NCBI RefSeq assembly: GCF_029338315.1
Contig: NZ_CP119794.1
Location: forward strand, 2,232,001 to 2,296,000
DNA from: Haloarcula regularis
GTDB lineage: Archaea; Halobacteriota; Halobacteria; Halobacteriales; Haloarculaceae
Length of the DNA stretch: 64,000 bases
Reading direction: 5' to 3'
Shown here: positions 40,022 to 49,360 of the stretch, one piece after another
Layout: each line of letters starts with the position of its first letter
Numbering within the stretch: position 1 is the stretch's first letter
Translations under genes and position numbers: made by a program
Notes under the pieces: model-generated
Database searches by the model: none
Seen by the model: the letters and a program-made list of their open reading frames with translations, nothing else
What the model was told of the DNA's origin: nothing

Positions 40022-43000
40022 ATGGCGACCGCCGAGAACACCGAACTCATCGACCGCTTCGAGGAGTTCTACCGCGATTACTACCGCAACGAGATCGGTG
40101 AGCTCGCACAGAAGTACCCCAACGACCAGAAGTCCCTGTACATCGACTGGCAGGACCTCTACCGGTTCGACCCGGACCTGGCCGACGACTACCGCACCAA
40201 ACCGCAGCAACTCCAGGAGTACGCCGAGGAGGCCCTGCGCCTGTACGACCTCCCGGTCGACGTCTCGCTCGGGCAGGCCCACGTCCGCGTCCGCAACCTC
40301 CCGAGTCCGAGGACATCCGGGAGATCCGCCACCAGCACCACGGCAACCTCATCAGCGTCCAGGGCATCGTCCGCAAGGCGACGGACGTTCGGCCGAAAGT
40401 GCTCACGGCCGCCTTCGAGTGCCAGCGCTGTGGCACCCTCACCCGCATCCCCCAGGCCGCCGGCGACTTCCAGGAACCCCACGAGTGCCAGGGGTGCGAG
40501 CGCCAGGGCCCCTTCCGGCTCAACACCGACCAGTCGGAGTTCATCGACGCCCAGAAGATCCGCGTCCAGGAGTCTCCCGAGGGCCTCCGTGGCGGCGAGA
40601 CGCCCCAGTCCATCGACGTCAACATCGAGGACGATATCACCGGAAACGTTACCGCGGGCGATCACGTCCGCGTGACCGGCGTCCTCAAGCTCGACCAGCA
40701 GGGCAACGACCGCGAGAAGTCCCCGATGTTCGACATCTACATGGACGGCGTCAGCGTCGAGATCGAGGACGAGCAGTTCGAGGAGATGGAGATCACCGAG
40801 GAGGACAAAAAGGAGATCGTCGAGCTCTCGAACGAACCCGACCTCTACGACAAGATGGTCGGGGCCATCGCACCCTCCATCTACGGCTACGAGAAAGAGA
40901 AGCTCGCGATGATGATCCAGCTGTTCTCCGGCGTGACCAAGAGCCTCCCCGACGGCTCGCGCATCCGCGGTGACCTGCACATGCTACTGATAGGTGACCC
41001 TGGCACGGGTAAGTGCCAAAAATTTGACAGCAAGGTGGCGCTTGCGGACGGTACAGAGCGTCAGATCGGAGATCTTGTAGAGTCCCGTCTGGATGCCCCT
41101 ACCAGCATTGACGACGGAGTGTATCAGCAGACAGATTTCGAAGTACAGACCGTCGATGACGACGGCTCGATTACTACCGGCACAGCAACGAAAGTCTGGA
41201 AGCGCGAAGCGCCGGAAACGCTGTACGAAATCAGAACGCAAAGCGGACGAGAAGTAACTGTCACACCGTCCCATCCCCTGTTCGTGCAGTCGGAGATGTC
41301 GCTTTCGGCGAGGCGAGCCGACCAACTATCTGAAGGTGACTTTCTCGCTGTTCCGGGCCAGCTACGTGGTGAGTGGGACAACACACTGGAGGTCCATCAC
41401 CGGACCGTCGACCGCCATAATGCGAACTCACTGACTACTCCCGAGCAAGTGACACCGCCGCTCGCTCGGTTGATGGGATATGTTATCGCCGAAGGGCACA
41501 TTAACGCGACCGAATCAAGCGGAGACGTCACGGTCACCAACGCGGACGAAGAGATAATTGAGGATGTCCTTGAGTGTGTCGAGTCACTGGGGCTGCGTGC
41601 GACGAGACGACCTCACCATACCAACGAAGACGTCGAACTCGCCTGTTGCTCGTCCGTCGAATTGATTGACTTCTTCCGGGAAATAGAACCGGCGATGCTG
41701 GAACCCTCTGCCGAACAGCGAGTGCCGGAGTGTTTGTTCCGTGCGACACCTGCGAACAAACGCGCGTTCCTCCGGGCGTATATCGACAGTGAGGGGACGG
41801 TATCGAAGAAAGAACGCGAGATCGCGGTCGGCTCGATGAGCCGCGAATTGCTCGAAGGGGTTCAGACACTCCTCCTCACATTCGGGATTACCAGTCATTT
41901 CGAATCCAGACAGGGGGGCAGCTATCGGCTCCGAATCAGCGGCACGGACTTCGTCACCTTCGTCGACCAGGTCGGCTTCGTGACAGAACGCAAATCGACC
42001 GCCTCCGCGTCGTTCTACGAGACGCCGCAGAATTCGAACACTGCTATCGTTCCAAATCTCTCGACTGATCTCAAACGAATCCGAGAATCGCTTGCACTGT
42101 CGCAGTTCGAGTGCGGTATCCCGCGAACGACGTATCAGCACTACGAGCGTGGAGACAGGAACCCCAGTCGTGACAGTTTGCTCGAGGTCGTCGCCACCTT
42201 CGAACAGCGACTCGAATGGCTCCGTGAGACGAAAGATCGGATCACAGGTGGAGAATGGACGGATATCGAGGACATTCGGGCACAGCTGAACCTCTCTCAG
42301 GACGACCTCGCAACAGCGATGGGAGTCGAACAGACGGCAGTCAGCTACTACGAACGAAACGACGCGATACCGGACGGAGGGTGTGTGGAGGATGCGAAGG
42401 AGGCGGTGATTCGAAGGATCGACCGCGGACTTTCGGTCACGACCGACGTCAAGCGACTCCGAACTATCGCAACTGCTGATGTTGCCTGGGACCGGATCGA
42501 GTCTATCGAGCCCGTCAAATCCGATGAGGAGTGGGTCTACGACCTCGAGGTCGAGGGAACGCACAGCTATCTCTCGAACGGCATCGTCTCGCACAACTCA
42601 CAGATGCTATCCTACATCCGACAAATCGCCCCACGCTCCGTCTACACCTCGGGCAAGGGATCCTCGAGCGCAGGGCTCACCGCCGCGGCGGTCCGCGACG
42701 ACTTCGGCGACGGCCAGCAGTGGACGCTGGAGGCTGGGGCACTCGTCCTGGCAGACCAGGGTATCGCTGCTGTCGACGAGCTCGACAAGATGCGGTGTGT
42801 CACCGGCGACACGCTCGTCCACCGGGCCGACGGCATCTCACGGATTCGGGACCTCGCACACGACGCCGCAGCGACGGGTACCGTCGAGGACCTCGCGAAC
42901 GGGCGCACTATCCGCGAGTTCGGTGACCTGCGCGTGTGGACGATGACCGACGACGGACGGCTCGTCACCCGTCCCGTGACCGCTATCCACGAATACGACG

Positions 43001-45624
43001 CGCCAGACGAACTGACCCGCGTCACGCTCACGACGGGCGAGCGACTGACGGCGACGGCGGACCACCCGTTCTTCGTCCGAGCGGACGGCGAGCGACGCGA
43101 ACGCCACGCGGCGGACCTCGAACACGGCGACTGGGTGTACGTGCCCAGGGACCTCAACGAGCCAGCCGCCGACGGCGGCGTCGCGGCCCTGCCCGACGGC
43201 GACTCACCGACACCACCCGACGGCGACGCCGTCTCGCCGGCCATGGCGTCCGTCCTCGGCTACCTCGCCGGCGACGGCAACGTCTATTACGACCGCGAGG
43301 AAGGCGTCTACGGTATCCGCTTTACCAACGCCGAGGCGGAACTGCTTGCCGATTTCGAGGGCGCCTGTCGGAGCGCCTTCGACGCCGAACCGGTTCGCCC
43401 GCCCAGCGAGCAGCGAGCGGACGGCGTCGAGACCGTTCGCCTCCCCGGCAAGCAGTACGCCGACACCGTCCTCGACGCGGGGATGAACCTGGAGACGTAC
43501 GACGGCAAGCGGCTCCCCGGGTCTGTCACGGCGTCGTCCCGGACGGCCAAGGCGGCGTTCGTCCGGGCGCTCGCCGACAGCGAGGGGTCGGTCGACGAGC
43601 GCAACGTCCGACTCCACTCCTCGAGTTACGAACTCATGCTGGGGACGAAGCAACTGTTGCTGGAGTTGGGCGTGTCCTCGCAACTACAGACGCGCAAGCG
43701 GTCCGACAGACGAGACGTGTACACGTTGACGATTACCGACGCCGACTCGCTGGCGGCGTTCGACCGCCACGTCGGGTTCACGCTCGACCGGAAACAGCGG
43801 TCGCTCGACGACGTGCTCGAGACCGTCGCCGGGGACCGGACCGTCCTCGACGTGATTCCCGGGTGTGGCTCGGTGCTGGCCGACTGCCGTGCGTCACTCC
43901 GTCTTCACCAGTCCGAGTGTGGCCTCTCCGACGCGACCTACTGCAACTTCGAGAACGAGGACGCGAACGTTTCGCTCCGATGTGCTCGGACCGTCCTCGA
44001 ACGGTTCGAGACCCGGCGCCACGAGGCGACTGTGGACCGCGAGCGCCTGGAAGGGGCCGACTGGGACCGGCTCGAATCGCTCCGGCAGCGCTATCACGTC
44101 TCGCAGGCCGAACTGGCGGCGGGAACCGCGTACAGCCAACAGCAGATCTCGAGCGGGTGGGGTGAGGATGCGGCCCTCCGCTCGACGGTCGAGTCACGAC
44201 TCGACGCAATCCTCTCCGGGATCGCGTCGACCGACCTCGAACGGCTCCGCGACCGCGTCCACGGCGACGTGAAGTGGCGGCGCGTCGACAGCGTTGAGAC
44301 GGTCCCGGCGACTGTCGACGACGACCGGATCCGACTCCTCCGCGAGGAACTGGCCGAACTGCTGAGCTGTCCGCCCGACGACGCCGTCGACGTCGCTCGA
44401 CAGCGACTCGCCGAGGATCCGTCTCTCGACGACTGGGCGACACTCCGCTCACGACTCGACGAGTACGGCATCTCGGGGGCGGCGCTCGCCGCCGACGTCG
44501 GTGTCGACCAGTCGACCGTCTCCCGCTGGCTTCGCGGCGTCGTCGAGACGGATCGGTTCGACGAGGTACGGCGGGCCGCTCGTGACCGGATCGACGCGGT
44601 CCGCGACCAGCTCCGCTCGCGGCTCGACGAACTCGAATCCCGGCAGGCGCCGAGCGTCTACGACCTCACCGTCGCGGGGACGCACAACTTCGTCGCGAAC
44701 GGGATGGTCGTCCACAACTCCGAGGACCGTTCGGCGATGCACCAGGCGCTCGAACAGCAGGAGATCAGCGTCTCGAAGGCCGGCATCAACGCCACGCTCA
44801 AGAGTCGCTGCTCGCTACTGGGCGCGGCCAATCCCAAGTACGGTCGGTTCGACCAGTACGAGCCCATCGGCGAGCAGATCGACCTGGAGCCGGCGCTCAT
44901 CTCCCGGTTCGACCTCATCTTCACGGTCACCGACCAGCCCGACGAGGAGTCCGACCGGAACCTCGCCTCGCACATCATCCAGACGAACTACGCCGGCGAA
45001 CTGCACACCCACCGCACCGAGAACGCCACCTCGAACTTCACCGAGGAGGAGGTCGAGACGGTCACCGAGGAGGTCGCGCCGACCATCGAGCCGGACTTGC
45101 TTCGCAAGTACATCGCCTACGCGAAGCGCAACTGCTTCCCGACGATGACCGAGGAGGCGAAAGAGCGCATCGAGGACTTCTACGTCGACCTCCGTCTGAA
45201 GGGGCAAGACGAGGACGCCCCGGTGCCGGTGACCGCCCGGAAGCTCGAGGCGCTGGTCAGGCTGGCCGAGGCCTCCGCCCGGATTCGTCTCTCCGACACC
45301 GTCGAGGAGGACGACGCCGAACGCGCGGTCGACATCGCGCTCTACTGTATGAAACAGATCGGCATCGACCCCGAGACCGGCGAGTTCGATGCCGACGTCG
45401 TCGAAACGGGCACCTCCAAGAGCCAGCGCGACCGCATCCAGAACCTGAAGGGTATCATCGCCGACATCGAGGACGAGTACGACGAGGGCGCGCCCATCGA
45501 CATCGTCGTCGAGCGCGCCGAGGAGGTCGGCATCGATGAGTCCAAGGCCGAACACGAGATCGAGAAGCTCAAGCAGAAAGGCGAGGTCTACGAGCCCCGC
45601 ACCGACCACCTCCGGACGACATAA
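40022..45624 (+). CDS. mcm: MCM replicative helicase containing two inteins, frameshifted near the N-terminus
   Basis: Replicative helicase. Precursor of about 1,867 aa; spliced product about 698 aa, normal for haloarchaeal MCM. The start ATG at 40022 gives MATAENTEL. The frame breaks at the CCC run 40300-40302 (one C short); restored, it reads NLPESEDIREIRHQ. The N-terminal domain has a zinc finger (CQRCGT...CQGC), the AAA+ core has Walker A GDPGTGK/S (interrupted by intein 1), Walker B DELDKM followed by R (interrupted by intein 2), sensor-1 LGAANP and arginine-finger SRFDLIF. The C-terminus is a winged helix. Lies 1 base overlapping with a small gene downstream (TAATG). Confidence 0.94.
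41014..42597 (+). other. Intein 1 in MCM (528 aa), in Walker A
   Basis: Inserted between the Walker A Lys (GDPGTGK) and the Ser that follows it. It begins with Cys (CQKFDSKVALADGT) and has the block B TPSHPLFV. Two LAGLIDADG motifs (LARLMGYVIAEGH, residues ~150-163; RAFLRAYIDSEG, ~250) make a homing nuclease, and it ends YLSNGIVSHN before the extein Ser. Between the nuclease and the C-terminal splicing part lie two XRE-type helix-turn-helix segments (~351-392 and ~418-456). Base composition is less GC-rich than the exteins. Splicing is needed for ATPase activity. Confidence 0.92.
42796..44718 (+). other. Intein 2 in MCM (641 aa), after Walker B
   Basis: Inserted after DELDKMR, next to Walker B. 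It starts CVTGDTLVHRADG, has block B TADHPFFV, LAGLIDADG motifs MASVLGYLAGDGN (~149) and AAFVRALADSEG (~253), and ends VANGMVVHN before the extein Ser of SEDRSAM. It is unusually long. Three more helix-turn-helix-like segments (about residues 361-395, 428-455 and 550-582, the last ADVGVDQSTVSRWLRG) fill the space before the splicing C-terminus. GC content is like the host gene, unlike intein 1, suggesting an older or locally adapted copy. Confidence 0.92.
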
Positions 45625-45896
45625 TGGACCGCATCTCCGCCCTGCGGAACGTCGAGGAGGCGCTCGCGGCCTTCGAGGACGGTGAGTGCTCGCTGTCCGA
45701 CCTCGAACGCGACGTCAGGGGTATCCTCCGCACCTACGCCACCGACTTCGAGGGCGACCTCGAGGCCTACCGGGCGTCCGGCACCGGCGCTGCCGACGGC
45801 CTGGTCGTCTTGGCACCCTCCGAATCGGCCGCCTGCGAGCGGGTCCGCACCCTCGTCGACGACCCCGGGGAGTTCTCGGTCAGCCGGGTCGGGTGA
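45624..45896 (+). CDS. Small acidic protein downstream of mcm (90 aa)
   Basis: Starts ATG at 45624, overlapping the mcm stop by one base, so translation is probably coupled. The sequence (ISALRNVEEALAAFEDGECSLSDLERDVRGILRTYATDFEGDL) reads as a helical bundle with a beta end (DGLVVLAPSESAACERV). Function unknown. It may be a haloarchaeal DUF conserved beside mcm; I cannot confirm this. An AT-rich promoter-like segment separates it from the next operon. Confidence 0.65.
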   Translation: MDRISALRNVEEALAAFEDGECSLSDLERDVRGILRTYATDFEGDLEAYRASGTGAADGLVVLAPSESAACERVRTLVDDPGEFSVSRVG

Positions 45897-45935: not shown

Positions 45936-45948
45936 AATAGTATAATTT
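45936..45948 (+). promoter_or_regulatory. TATA box of the small-gene operon
   Basis: AGAAAATAGTATAATTTTAG is the A/T-rich core of a 80-bp gap; the GTATAATTTT portion ends about 30 nt before the ATG at 45977. Consistent with a leaderless start of the following four-gene unit. Confidence 0.5.
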
Positions 45949-45976
45949 TAGTCCTAGCCACGACTGCAACCGATCG

Positions 45977-46312
45977 ATGCTGCTGGTCGTCACGTACTCG
46001 CGGGCCGCCCGTCGGGACCTGCGAAACGTCTGTCGGCGACACGAGTCGTGTGTGGCCCAGCAACTCGGACGGGCGGCGCTGTTCGAGGGGACAGAGTTCG
46101 GTGCGTTCCAGGTACTGCGCCTCCGGGAGAAACACGACCTGGCGGTCCGGGTCGAGCGGCTCGAACCGTTCGGGCCCGAGGACGTCCCGGCGCGGGTGGC
46201 CGAGGCCGCACGCGCGTACGAGCAGCGGACGGAGCCGGCGACGCCGTACGAGCGGTTCGCGGCCGGGCGTGACCTGCCCGCGCCGGCGTCGATGCGGGAG
46301 GAACCGCTGTGA
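45977..46312 (+). CDS. Small protein starting the MinD-like operon (111 aa)
   Basis: Basic first half (TYSRAARRDLRNVCRRHESCVAQQLGRAALF) and an acidic, helical second half with RVAEAARAYEQR. No catalytic motif is visible. Its stop overlaps the ATG of the next gene by 4 bases (46309-46312). Function unknown; context suggests that it works with the following three proteins. Confidence 0.62.
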   Translation: MLLVVTYSRAARRDLRNVCRRHESCVAQQLGRAALFEGTEFGAFQVLRLREKHDLAVRVERLEPFGPEDVPARVAEAARAYEQRTEPATPYERFAAGRDLPAPASMREEPL

Positions 46313-47121
46313 GGCTCCGGGTCGGCGGGGCCTGTCACGAGGGCCGTGTCGTGGATCTCCGGGCCAGCGACGTCGACGGCGCTGCCGTCGCGCGTTCGGT
46401 GCGTGGGGAGGCCCTGACGCCGGCGGTTTCCCCCACCGCCACGGCGGCGGTGTATCGCTATGCGGGCCACGTCCGACCGGGGATGGGCCTGCGGACCAGG
46501 ACGGCACTGGCGGCGGCGGCCCGGTCCCGCGGCGTGACGGCGCCCCAGGACGACGCGATCGCAGACCTGCGGGCACGGCTCGCCGACCTCGACCCCGACC
46601 GACCGGACCTCCCGGCCCGCACGGGCCGGGTCCCGGAGGGGGCCGTCAGGGAGCTCGAGGAGGCCGTCGCGACACACCGAGGACGCGTCCGGGCCCACGA
46701 GCGACTCCCTGCGGGCGACGCCAGCGAGCCACGCGAGGACCTCCGGGCGGCCGCGCGGCGCCTGTCCGAACGCGAGACCGAACGGACCGCGGCCCGGCAG
46801 ACCCGCGAACGACGGCGCGATGCCGCCCGCGGGTACCGCCAGCAACTGGAGCGGCGCCGGCGCCTGGCCGACGAGCTGGCGAACCGCCGGCGCGAGGCGC
46901 GGGCGCACCTGGTAGATTCGCTCGAGGGCAGGTTTCGCGCATCGCTCGCGACACTTCCCGGCCCCACCCCCGAGGATCCGTTCGACGCACCGCCGGTCGA
47001 CGCGGCGCTCGCTACACTTCGGGTCGCCCGGACCGAGGCACCGGTCGTCCTCGAGGTCGACCGGTTCGCCAGTCCGGCGGCCGCCGCGCGGCAGCTCTCG
47101 GCGCCCGTGGTCCGGTGCTGA
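46309..47121 (+). CDS. Coiled-coil protein of the MinD-like operon (270 aa)
   Basis: N-terminal beta-rich part (RLRVGGACHEGRVVDLRASD) and a long Arg/Glu-rich coiled-coil region (roughly residues 100-195, RRRRLADELANRRREARAHL and neighbours). It ends with a domain containing APVVLEVDRFASPAAAARQL. Starts 4 bases inside the previous gene. The helical arms suggest a scaffold or partner for the ATPase downstream. Family not recognised. Confidence 0.6.
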   Translation: MRLRVGGACHEGRVVDLRASDVDGAAVARSVRGEALTPAVSPTATAAVYRYAGHVRPGMGLRTRTALAAAARSRGVTAPQDDAIADLRARLADLDPDRPDLPARTGRVPEGAVRELEEAVATHRGRVRAHERLPAGDASEPREDLRAAARRLSERETERTAARQTRERRRDAARGYRQQLERRRRLADELANRRREARAHLVDSLEGRFRASLATLPGPTPEDPFDAPPVDAALATLRVARTEAPVVLEVDRFASPAAAARQLSAPVVRC

Positions 47122-47153
47122 GATTTAAATCCGAACGGGCGACCACCCGGCGT

Positions 47154-47861
47154 ATGGTCACGTTTGCAAGCGAGTGTACGGCCCGGGAGGGCGTCACGCT
47201 GGTCACCGCGGCGCTGACGGATGTCGCTGTACCGACCAGGATCACCCTCGCGAACCGACTGGACGGGCCGGTCTGGCCGCCACGTCGCGAGGGCCTTCCG
47301 GTGTGTGGCTGGACCGACACCGGGTTCGAGGCCGTCGTCGGCCCGGGTCGGCACGCCTTCGGCTACGCTTCGCCAGCGCCGCCGGTGGACCCGGCGGTCG
47401 AGCTGGTCGAAGCCACACCGGTCCCCGACGCCGAACCGACCAGTGACGTGGAACAGACGCCCGAGGCTGTCTGCCGGGACCTCGGCGACCCGTCGCCGCC
47501 CGCCGACGCGCTTTCGCCGGCGGTCCAGAGCGGCGGCGAGACGGGCCGCGAGCCCGCGGCCGTCGACGACACGGTCCGGGACCTCCCGGACCCCGTCGCC
47601 GAGTTCTTCGAGGCGGCCGAACGACGGGTCCGCAGGGCCGAGGCACTGGCGGAGTCCGGGACGTCGACGGAGGCCGAGACGCTGGCGGCGGCGAGCACCG
47701 CCGTGCGTGAGGCGGGCGGGCTGGACGAGGTGCGCGCCCTCGCCGAGCGGCACGAAACGGACGTCCGGACGCTCCGGGCTATCGCCCGGCGCGCCGAGGC
47801 GCTCGCAGAGCGACGGGCCGCGGCGACGGTTCAGACCGACACCCTCGAACGGCTCGCATGA
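47154..47861 (+). CDS. Operon protein with Pro/Asp linker and helical C-terminus (235 aa)
   Basis: N-terminal ~75 residues form a beta-rich domain (VTLVTAALTDVAVPTRITLANRLDGPVWPP). A low-complexity acidic linker follows, then a helical segment (DPVAEFFEAAERRVRRAEALAE) with an Ala/Glu-rich bundle. Its stop overlaps the ATG of the MinD-like gene (47858-47861), indicating translational coupling. Function unknown. Confidence 0.6.
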   Translation: MVTFASECTAREGVTLVTAALTDVAVPTRITLANRLDGPVWPPRREGLPVCGWTDTGFEAVVGPGRHAFGYASPAPPVDPAVELVEATPVPDAEPTSDVEQTPEAVCRDLGDPSPPADALSPAVQSGGETGREPAAVDDTVRDLPDPVAEFFEAAERRVRRAEALAESGTSTEAETLAAASTAVREAGGLDEVRALAERHETDVRTLRAIARRAEALAERRAAATVQTDTLERLA

Positions 47862-48523
47862 TCCTGACCGTCACCGGCGGCAAGGGCGGGGTCGGGAAGT
47901 CGACGGTCGCCTACAACCTCGCGGCGGCGCTCGACGGCGTCGTCGTCGACGGCGACCTCGCGATGGCCGACCTCCCGGCCGGTCGCGGTCCGGACCTCCA
48001 CGACGTGCTCGCCGGCCGGGCGGCGCCGCTCGAGGCCGTCTCGGAAGCGGGCCCGGTCGCGATGGTCCCCTGTGGCCGTTCGCTCGCTGGGGCGCGGGCG
48101 GCCGACGTGACTGCACTCGGCGACGTCCTGGCGACCCTCGAGCGGACGGCTCGCTGGGTCGTCGTCGACTCGCCGGCCGGCCTGCGGGCCGACGTCGGCG
48201 TCCCGCTCTCGGTCGCCGACGCCGCGGTCCTCGTGACGACGCCAGACGCCGCGGCGCTGGCAGACGCCCTGCGTGTCCGCGAACTCGTCCGCGAGCTCGA
48301 CACCGGGCTCTGTCGGGTGGTGCTCAACCGGGCCGGGCCGGACCCGAAGACGACGGCCGTTGCCGACCGCTTCGGGGCACCCGTCGTCACCGTCCCCGAG
48401 AGCGACGCCGTCGCGAGCGCCCAGCGGGCCGGTCAGCCGGTCCGTCGGACGGCGCCCGATTCCCCTGCCGCCGACGCCTTCGAGTCGCTCGCGGCCGCCG
48501 TTCAGTCCTGCAGGCCGGTGTAG
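47858..48523 (+). CDS. MinD/ParA-like P-loop ATPase (221 aa)
   Basis: SIMIBI-class ATPase with the deviant Walker A KGGVGKST at residues ~8-15 (both Lys present), the switch segment VVVDSPAGL, and VLVTTPDAAALADALRV in place of the usual membrane/partner region. It is short for a MinD, lacking the obvious C-terminal membrane helix. Related haloarchaeal proteins affect placement of cell machinery. Last in the four-gene unit. Its 3' end overlaps TFB by 22 bp. Target unknown. Confidence 0.82.
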   Translation: MILTVTGGKGGVGKSTVAYNLAAALDGVVVDGDLAMADLPAGRGPDLHDVLAGRAAPLEAVSEAGPVAMVPCGRSLAGARAADVTALGDVLATLERTARWVVVDSPAGLRADVGVPLSVADAAVLVTTPDAAALADALRVRELVRELDTGLCRVVLNRAGPDPKTTAVADRFGAPVVTVPESDAVASAQRAGQPVRRTAPDSPAADAFESLAAAVQSCRPV

Positions 48524-49360
48524 GTCCCCGCAGCGTCACCGGCGTCACGTCGGCCACGTCGGCCGCCTCGGCCTGGGTCAGGTCGACGTCGCGCTCGCCG
48601 GCCGCAGTGTAGAGACACGCCGCCGCCACCCCGGCGGGGTTCCGTCCGGCGACGAGTCCGCGGTCGCGCGCCTCGTCGACCAGCTCCTCCGCCCGCTTTC
48701 TGACTGTCGTGGGTAATTCGAGTTCGGTCGCGAACCGCGGGACGTACTCGCGGGGGTCGATGGGGCCCGTCGGGAGCCCCAGCTCCCGGTTGAGCGCGTC
48801 GTAGGCCGCCCGGAGTTCCGACTCGTCAGCGCGGGCGACCGCACACAGTTCCTCGACGGTCCGCGCGAGTCCTTCGGTTCGACACGTGGCATAGACGCCG
48901 GCCGCGGCGAACCCCTCCAGCGAGCGCCCGCGCAGCAGGTCCGCCTCCTGGGCCGACTCGAACAGCACGCAGGCCCGGTCACGGATAGCGTCGGAGAGGT
49001 CGAGCGACCCGACGATACGCCGTATCTCGGTGAAGGCGTAGACCTGGTTGCGTTCGCGCTTGGACCGGACCTGCGCGCGGTTGTGCTCGCGGCGGAGGCG
49101 CGCCAGCTGCCGACGCTTGCGGCCCTTGACCCTGGTCGACCGGCCGATCTCCGTCGAGAGCCCCGGTCGTGGCGCGACCGGGTCAGTGGCGCCCCCGTCC
49201 GGGCACGCTCGGTGTCGTCGTCCTCGAAGGACCGCCACTCCGGGCCGCGGTCGATAGGGTCCTCGCCGACGACCAGGCCACACTCGGCACAGACCGCCTC
49301 GTGACCGTCCTGCTCGACTGCACACTCACACTCCGGGCAACGTCGCGTCGTTGCGCTCAT
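48502..49360 (-). CDS. tfb: Transcription initiation factor IIB (TFB), two indels
   Basis: Archaeal general transcription factor. The N-terminus has the zinc ribbon CPECECAVEQDGHEAVCAECG, then EWRSF. A frame break occurs at the CCCC run 49161-49164 (plus strand); with one base added, HDRGLSTEIGR follows, the conserved B-finger region. Two cyclin repeats come next. A second break at 48526-48529 separates the end (TLRGTYTGLQD*) at the TGA (48502-48504). Length after repair is about 286 aa. Either a sequence error, or a genuine decaying paralogue, since haloarchaea carry several TFBs. ATG at 49358-49360. Confidence 0.88.

Follow-up and report, generated by a model that had tools for sequence, protein, structure and literature searches.

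In a 64,000-nucleotide stretch of the Haloarcula regularis genome (here called the window), four intact genes on the plus strand (45977-48523) encode DUF7855, the coiled-coil protein DUF7856, DUF7857 and a MinD/ParA ATPase, flanked by mcm on the upstream side and by a convergent tfb gene downstream. Judged by its sequence elements, the locus is better read as two two-gene transcription units than as the 'four-gene operon' of the original prediction. We could show that the ATPase is the orthologue of MinD1 (Haloferax volcanii HVO_0225), and we consider it fairly likely that DUF7855-DUF7856 and DUF7857-MinD1 are two independent modules, the latter pairing a MinD-type switch driven by ATP with a partner dedicated to it. 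The name of the ATPase and the Pfam DUF families were already known; new is a candidate partner for MinD1, DUF7857, which is the best lead to the role of this ATPase.

The tight gene order that had been predicted, with overlaps at two of the three junctions, was confirmed: all four reading frames are open, and DUF7855/DUF7856 as well as DUF7857/MinD1 overlap by 4 bp each. The DUF7856/DUF7857 junction is a 32-bp gap with a TATA-like TTTAAA inside. The locus comprises the following features:

45624-45896, plus strand: DUF7854 gene (Pfam PF25252, 126 bits), start codon overlapping the mcm stop codon (TAATG)
45942-45951, plus strand: TATA-like element ATAATTTTAG upstream of DUF7855, putative start of transcription unit 1, recognised by sequence
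45977-46312, plus strand: DUF7855, 111 aa (Pfam PF25253, 154 bits)
46309-47121, plus strand: DUF7856, 270 aa, GTG start (Pfam PF25254, 202 bits)
47124-47130, plus strand: TATA-like TTTAAAT, 30 nt 5' of the DUF7857 ATG, putative start of transcription unit 2
47154-47861, plus strand: DUF7857, 235 aa (Pfam PF25256, 105 bits)
47457-47513, plus strand: DUF7857 residues 102-120 (TPEAVCRDLGDPSPPADAL), short motif conserved in the alignment, candidate MinD1-binding element
47858-48523, plus strand: MinD1 ATPase, 221 aa (TIGR01969 match, matches to solved MinDs, synteny)
47879-47902, plus strand: deviant Walker A motif GKGGVGKS with signature lysine, in MinD1 (orthologue alignment)

Since the DUF7854 start overlaps the mcm stop codon, we grouped this gene with mcm, outside the four genes. 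The Pfam matches of all four proteins lie far above the cut-off (for the ATPase, ParA/CbiA with 45-49 bits), which excludes chance reading frames and identifies them as real genes. Co-occurrence across Halobacteria, suggested earlier as a check, was borne out: the order mcm-DUF7854-DUF7855-DUF7856-DUF7857-minD-tfb recurs across the class, and order and overlaps are kept in dozens of genera; the two modules were neighbours in much of Halobacteria. DUF7855 is strongly conserved, with 33 invariant columns in an alignment of 11 sequences.

The junctions within the two pairs differ from the junction between them. DUF7855 and DUF7856 share a 4-bp overlap in 57 of 80 loci. For DUF7857 and MinD1, both genes were called in 64 loci, and in 60 of these the overlap is 4 bp exactly, the remaining four looking like start- or frame-miscalls. 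Between DUF7856 and DUF7857, a 4-bp overlap was found in no locus and the gap usually measures 25-50 bp. A TTTAW element starts at -29 to -31 before the DUF7857 ATG in 58 of 68 orthologous loci, compared to none of 68 in the corresponding zone before DUF7856 and none of 59 before MinD1. Before DUF7855, TTTAW is present in the -35..-26 zone in 42 of 80 loci, with a close variant in many others. Each gene pair has a TATA-like box about 30 nt 5' of its first start codon, and the putative promoters are established as sequence elements; it is the conserved box inside the 32-bp gap that argues for two units. A single operon would be expected to carry no internal promoter and to be inherited as a unit; what we found is the box before DUF7857 and pairs that separate. 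Leaderless transcripts are usual in haloarchaea, and the spacing of the box before the DUF7857 ATG suggests that the DUF7857-MinD1 transcript is probably leaderless as well. A second motif, close to GNGRCCA, follows the TATA-like box ahead of the DUF7857 start codon (47137-47145); it is kept about 10-17 nt before the ATG in most orthologous loci, and none was seen before DUF7855. Three Halorussus loci and one MAG (L068, L071, L089, L105) carry an extra 430-615 bp between DUF7856 and DUF7857, possibly an inserted gene.

The two pairs also part in presence and location. In 40 of 40 loci, some of them away from mcm, DUF7857 directly precedes MinD1 and shares its strand; this set included eight loci away from DUF7856 and twenty chosen by DUF7857 alone. 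DUF7855 adjoins DUF7856 in the 80 anchored loci; among 36 genomes lacking a DUF7856 match, it was detected in just 2. DUF7857-MinD1 occurs without DUF7855-DUF7856, often relocated, and DUF7855-DUF7856 also stands alone. In Halorubrum (L106, L112) and Salinarchaeum (L104), DUF7855-DUF7856 resides beside mcm/DUF7854 and DUF7857-MinD1 elsewhere in the same genomes; separation was seen in at least these two genera and the family f3. Among 292 genomes, which are related, so that the counts are not independent events, DUF7856 was detected in 175 and DUF7857 in 214, with both in 168, DUF7856 only in 7 (two of which carry a diverged DUF7857), DUF7857 only in 46 and neither in 71. Of 22 genomes with no match to DUF7857, 21 also lack MinD1, and the 22nd has MinD1 together with a diverged DUF7857; the best MinD match in the 21 genomes reaches 115-146 bits, compared to 225-354 bits for MinD1. 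The members of each module are lost together and relocated together. From this distribution, DUF7857 would be the obligate partner of MinD1, whereas the coiled-coil protein DUF7856, for which a partnership with the ATPase had been proposed, is not an obligate one, since the pairs are kept, lost and moved separately and have separate promoter elements. A search of 120 genomes of the phylum gave 15 DUF7857 matches above the cut-off, every one within the same order, and the families appear confined to Halobacteria.

The assignment of the ATPase to MinD1 follows from its profile family, from the mcm...tfb synteny and from a score well above those of MinD paralogues. Its best curated model is TIGR01969 (archaeal MinD; E=2.9e-41, 141 bits, below the curated cut-off of 201.75), its nearest solved structures are the archaeal MinDs 1hyq, 1g3q and 1ion (E<1e-33), and its score of 354 bits stands against 116-145 bits for the other three full-length MinDs encoded in the same genome. 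The synteny mcm-DUF7854-DUF7855-DUF7856-DUF7857-minD-tfb recurs in several species of Haloferax. The corresponding H. volcanii genes are HVO_0220 for mcm (PMC3972481), HVO_0225 for MinD1 (PMC11621097) and HVO_0226 for tfb (PMC7714728), which leaves exactly four genes between mcm and minD1; DUF7855, DUF7856 and DUF7857, the three families searched, were all detected in the H. volcanii control genome. The window gene and H. volcanii MinD1, compared via other Haloferax species (L056, L059-L061, L066, L083, L085), belong to the same family and occupy the same position, and no difference was found at this level. The expected MinD/ParA-like ATPase turned out to be a true MinD whose nucleotide-binding residues are intact: across 23 aligned MinD1 orthologues, G8-G13, K9, K14 and T16 of the deviant Walker A motif are invariant, as are D104 of Walker B and the following P106, A107 and G108. 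The C-terminus is short. The match to TIGR01969 stops at position 231 of 251 and that to the solved MinD 1hyq at 233 of 263. At this end MinD1 is about 20 positions shorter than the TIGR01969 model, little follows the last shared helix in its orthologues, and a MinD paralogue of the same genome carries a terminal GGVFGLFN tail. Length and sequence of MinD1 therefore suggest that it lacks a C-terminal amphipathic membrane-targeting helix.

For DUF7857, AlphaFold predicts an N-terminal beta-sandwich (about residues 1-90; pLDDT 90-98), followed by the motif, an acidic linker (51-72) and a C-terminal helical hairpin (mostly 87-95); the poorly predicted stretch holds one short helix at residues 103-108. 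The motif (residues 102-120) can be recognised in almost every DUF7857 protein linked to MinD1. In minimal MinD1-linked forms of 119-125 aa it is the extreme C-terminus, and because these forms end right after the motif, the C-terminal part of DUF7857 would be dispensable. Seven Natronomonas-type DUF7857 proteins without MinD1 have lost the motif and retained the sandwich and the helical part; in the three Natronomonas-type genomes searched, MinD1 is absent altogether. Hence, we propose the motif as the candidate MinD1 contact site of DUF7857, noting that it was defined post hoc and that the comparison rests on one MinD1-less clade, the only such group found with DUF7857, and probably on a single evolutionary event. 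A loose regular expression for the motif is unspecific, also matching 38 of 68 DUF7856 proteins, and the motif claim is thus based on alignment and position. DUF7857 matched no known partner protein in Pfam or, by sequence, among solved structures. Its head shares a general beta-sandwich fold with DUF1425, ApaG, TRAP and CBM2 (best match 3o0l, probability 0.99); with E-values of at least 0.0076 and TM scores of at most 0.5 these matches are not significant and a common function is unsupported. In the Natronomonas-type loci (L074, L082, L088, L094, L095, L113, L116), DUF7856 is shortened, in several of them to about 220 aa. Downstream of a MinD paralogue of the window genome, and overlapping it by 4 bp, lies a gene for a 183-aa protein (L251, 3341-3892), which may be the HVO_0596 orthologue; DUF7857 showed no similarity to this downstream gene (probability 0.1%).

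Following this argumentation, MinD1 would dimerise on ATP, and DUF7857, made from the same message, would dock via the short motif behind its beta-sandwich. Docked DUF7857 might then set the place of action or the cargo of MinD1, and hydrolysis of ATP would reset the complex. The role of a localiser is proposed for DUF7857 since MinD1 appears to have no membrane helix of its own. That DUF7857 actually replaces this helix, forming with MinD1 a self-contained portable module that in one family has been joined to a five-gene MinD-KaiC/membrane-protein operon, is possible and put forward only tentatively. Module 1, DUF7855-DUF7856, would comprise a separate small protein and a split-head coiled-coil protein that act independently of the ATPase.

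Bacterial MinD-MinE/MinC and ParA-ParB are among the closest known systems; they share with MinD1 the deviant Walker A motif, the expected dimerisation on ATP and an adjacent partner gene. Unlike bacterial MinD, MinD1 shows no C-terminal membrane helix, and DUF7857 matches no known partner. The original prediction of an undescribed system holds in part: a literature search including the DUF numbers and HVO_0222-0224 revealed a described function for none of the four genes, but the ATPase is MinD1, which has both a name and published H. volcanii deletions (PMC11621097, PMC11588486), and its three neighbours are already listed as DUFs in Pfam. At the time of that work, the functions of MinD1-3 were undescribed and no clear MinE-like partner was known (PMC11621097). 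A four-fold minD deletion in H. volcanii showed no division phenotype, and the motility phenotype was that of the minD2/minD4 double deletion (PMC11621097); the lack of a phenotype beyond minD2/minD4 counts against a major division role of MinD1 in this species, and these deletions revealed no positioning role for it. MinD2-HVO_0596 of H. volcanii is likewise a MinD with a conserved gene of the same operon as its proposed partner (PMC11588486), with the difference that HVO_0596 lies downstream of its MinD and DUF7857 upstream of MinD1. Deletion of HVO_0596 gave no phenotype (PMC11588486), which by analogy counts against the proposed DUF7857-MinD1 pairing. With the motif as a short region to mutate, the function of MinD1 could be tested with a small number of pull-downs and deletions in an established model organism, and the coiled-coil gene would not be the first target.

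But could all four genes still form one positioning or segregation system, as originally suggested, with DUF7856 serving as track, scaffold or activator in the manner of ParB, MinE or PomX? The order kept in dozens of genera and the joint absence of both modules from 71 of 292 genomes speak for it. We nevertheless regard it as unlikely, because the pairs part in location and presence in several lineages, DUF7857 has a promoter element of its own and it occurs without a DUF7856 match in 46 of 292 genomes; these observations weaken the idea of a single system. Similarly improbable is a role in replication or segregation with MinD1 as a ParA-like DNA-bound ATPase and DUF7856 as an SMC-like factor. 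The position of the locus between mcm and tfb would fit such a role, and so would the best structural matches of DUF7856. The expected long coiled coil is indeed present: in the AlphaFold model (mean pLDDT 96.3, pTM 0.82), a split small alpha/beta head (residues 1-100 and 220-270) surrounds a coiled coil (110-131, 139-215), with a mean pLDDT of 96 for helix 139-215, and the top Foldseek matches are mostly heads of SMC and Rad50 proteins. The likeness is one of architecture only, two alpha/beta half-heads joined by a coiled coil. The structural matches are not significant (E>=0.058), a Walker A motif (GxxGxGK[ST]) is absent from the window protein, the family consensus and the sequences read, and comparison of the head lobes with SMC/Rad50 profiles by hhalign gave probabilities of at most 1.1%; we therefore dropped DUF7856 as kin of SMC/Rad50. 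Moreover, DUF7857-MinD1 resides away from mcm in several lineages, MinD1 is nearer to MinD than to ParA, and growth and division were unaffected in the published deletions. A viral fold library searched with DUF7856 yielded mostly coiled-coil proteins and nothing significant, and the sequences of DUF7855, DUF7856 and DUF7857 gave no credible match among solved structures. The window DUF7856 is basic (pI 11) compared to a family median of 5.3, and in view of this median we do not claim nucleic-acid binding.

Regulation of a membrane or potassium-transport complex by MinD1 and DUF7857 is suggested by an operon at L223 (1442-6356), in which five genes, each overlapping the next, encode DUF7857, MinD1, a MinD-KaiC fusion (DUF7125) and two membrane proteins. 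The fusion and two tandem membrane proteins stand beside or in an operon with DUF7857-MinD1 in L223, L217, L220, L226 and L229; fusion or membrane genes are nearby in most of the f3 loci inspected, with another arrangement in L226. We hold this to be rather improbable as well, since the association is mostly limited to one family and perhaps to a single relocation event, the TrkA-C-like match of one membrane protein is weak (E=0.0024, below cut-off) and homologues of the membrane genes are located elsewhere in the window genome. The five-gene operon is a lead to the cargo of MinD1, short of evidence. Hardly any weight falls on a metal or Fe-S cofactor carrier of the NUBPL/Mrp type: the top Pfam match of the ATPase is the NUBPL P-loop family (8.6e-13), but the archaeal MinD model fits far better (2.9e-41), the closest solved structures are MinDs and the alignment of 23 orthologues contains no conserved cysteine pair near the C-terminus. 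We thus favour DUF7857-MinD1 as a switch with a dedicated partner.

As to the flanks of the locus, tfb (HVO_0226 orthologue; 48502-49360, minus strand) carries two frameshifts relative to a related species, one of them near its 3' end, and the completeness of the genome is 90%, compared to about 99% in relatives. Both observations led us to suspect sequencing indels, which likely explain the frameshifts; these probable assembly errors near the locus leave the four genes untouched. On the other side, mcm (40399-45624) is interrupted by two large insertions that are intein-like in appearance.
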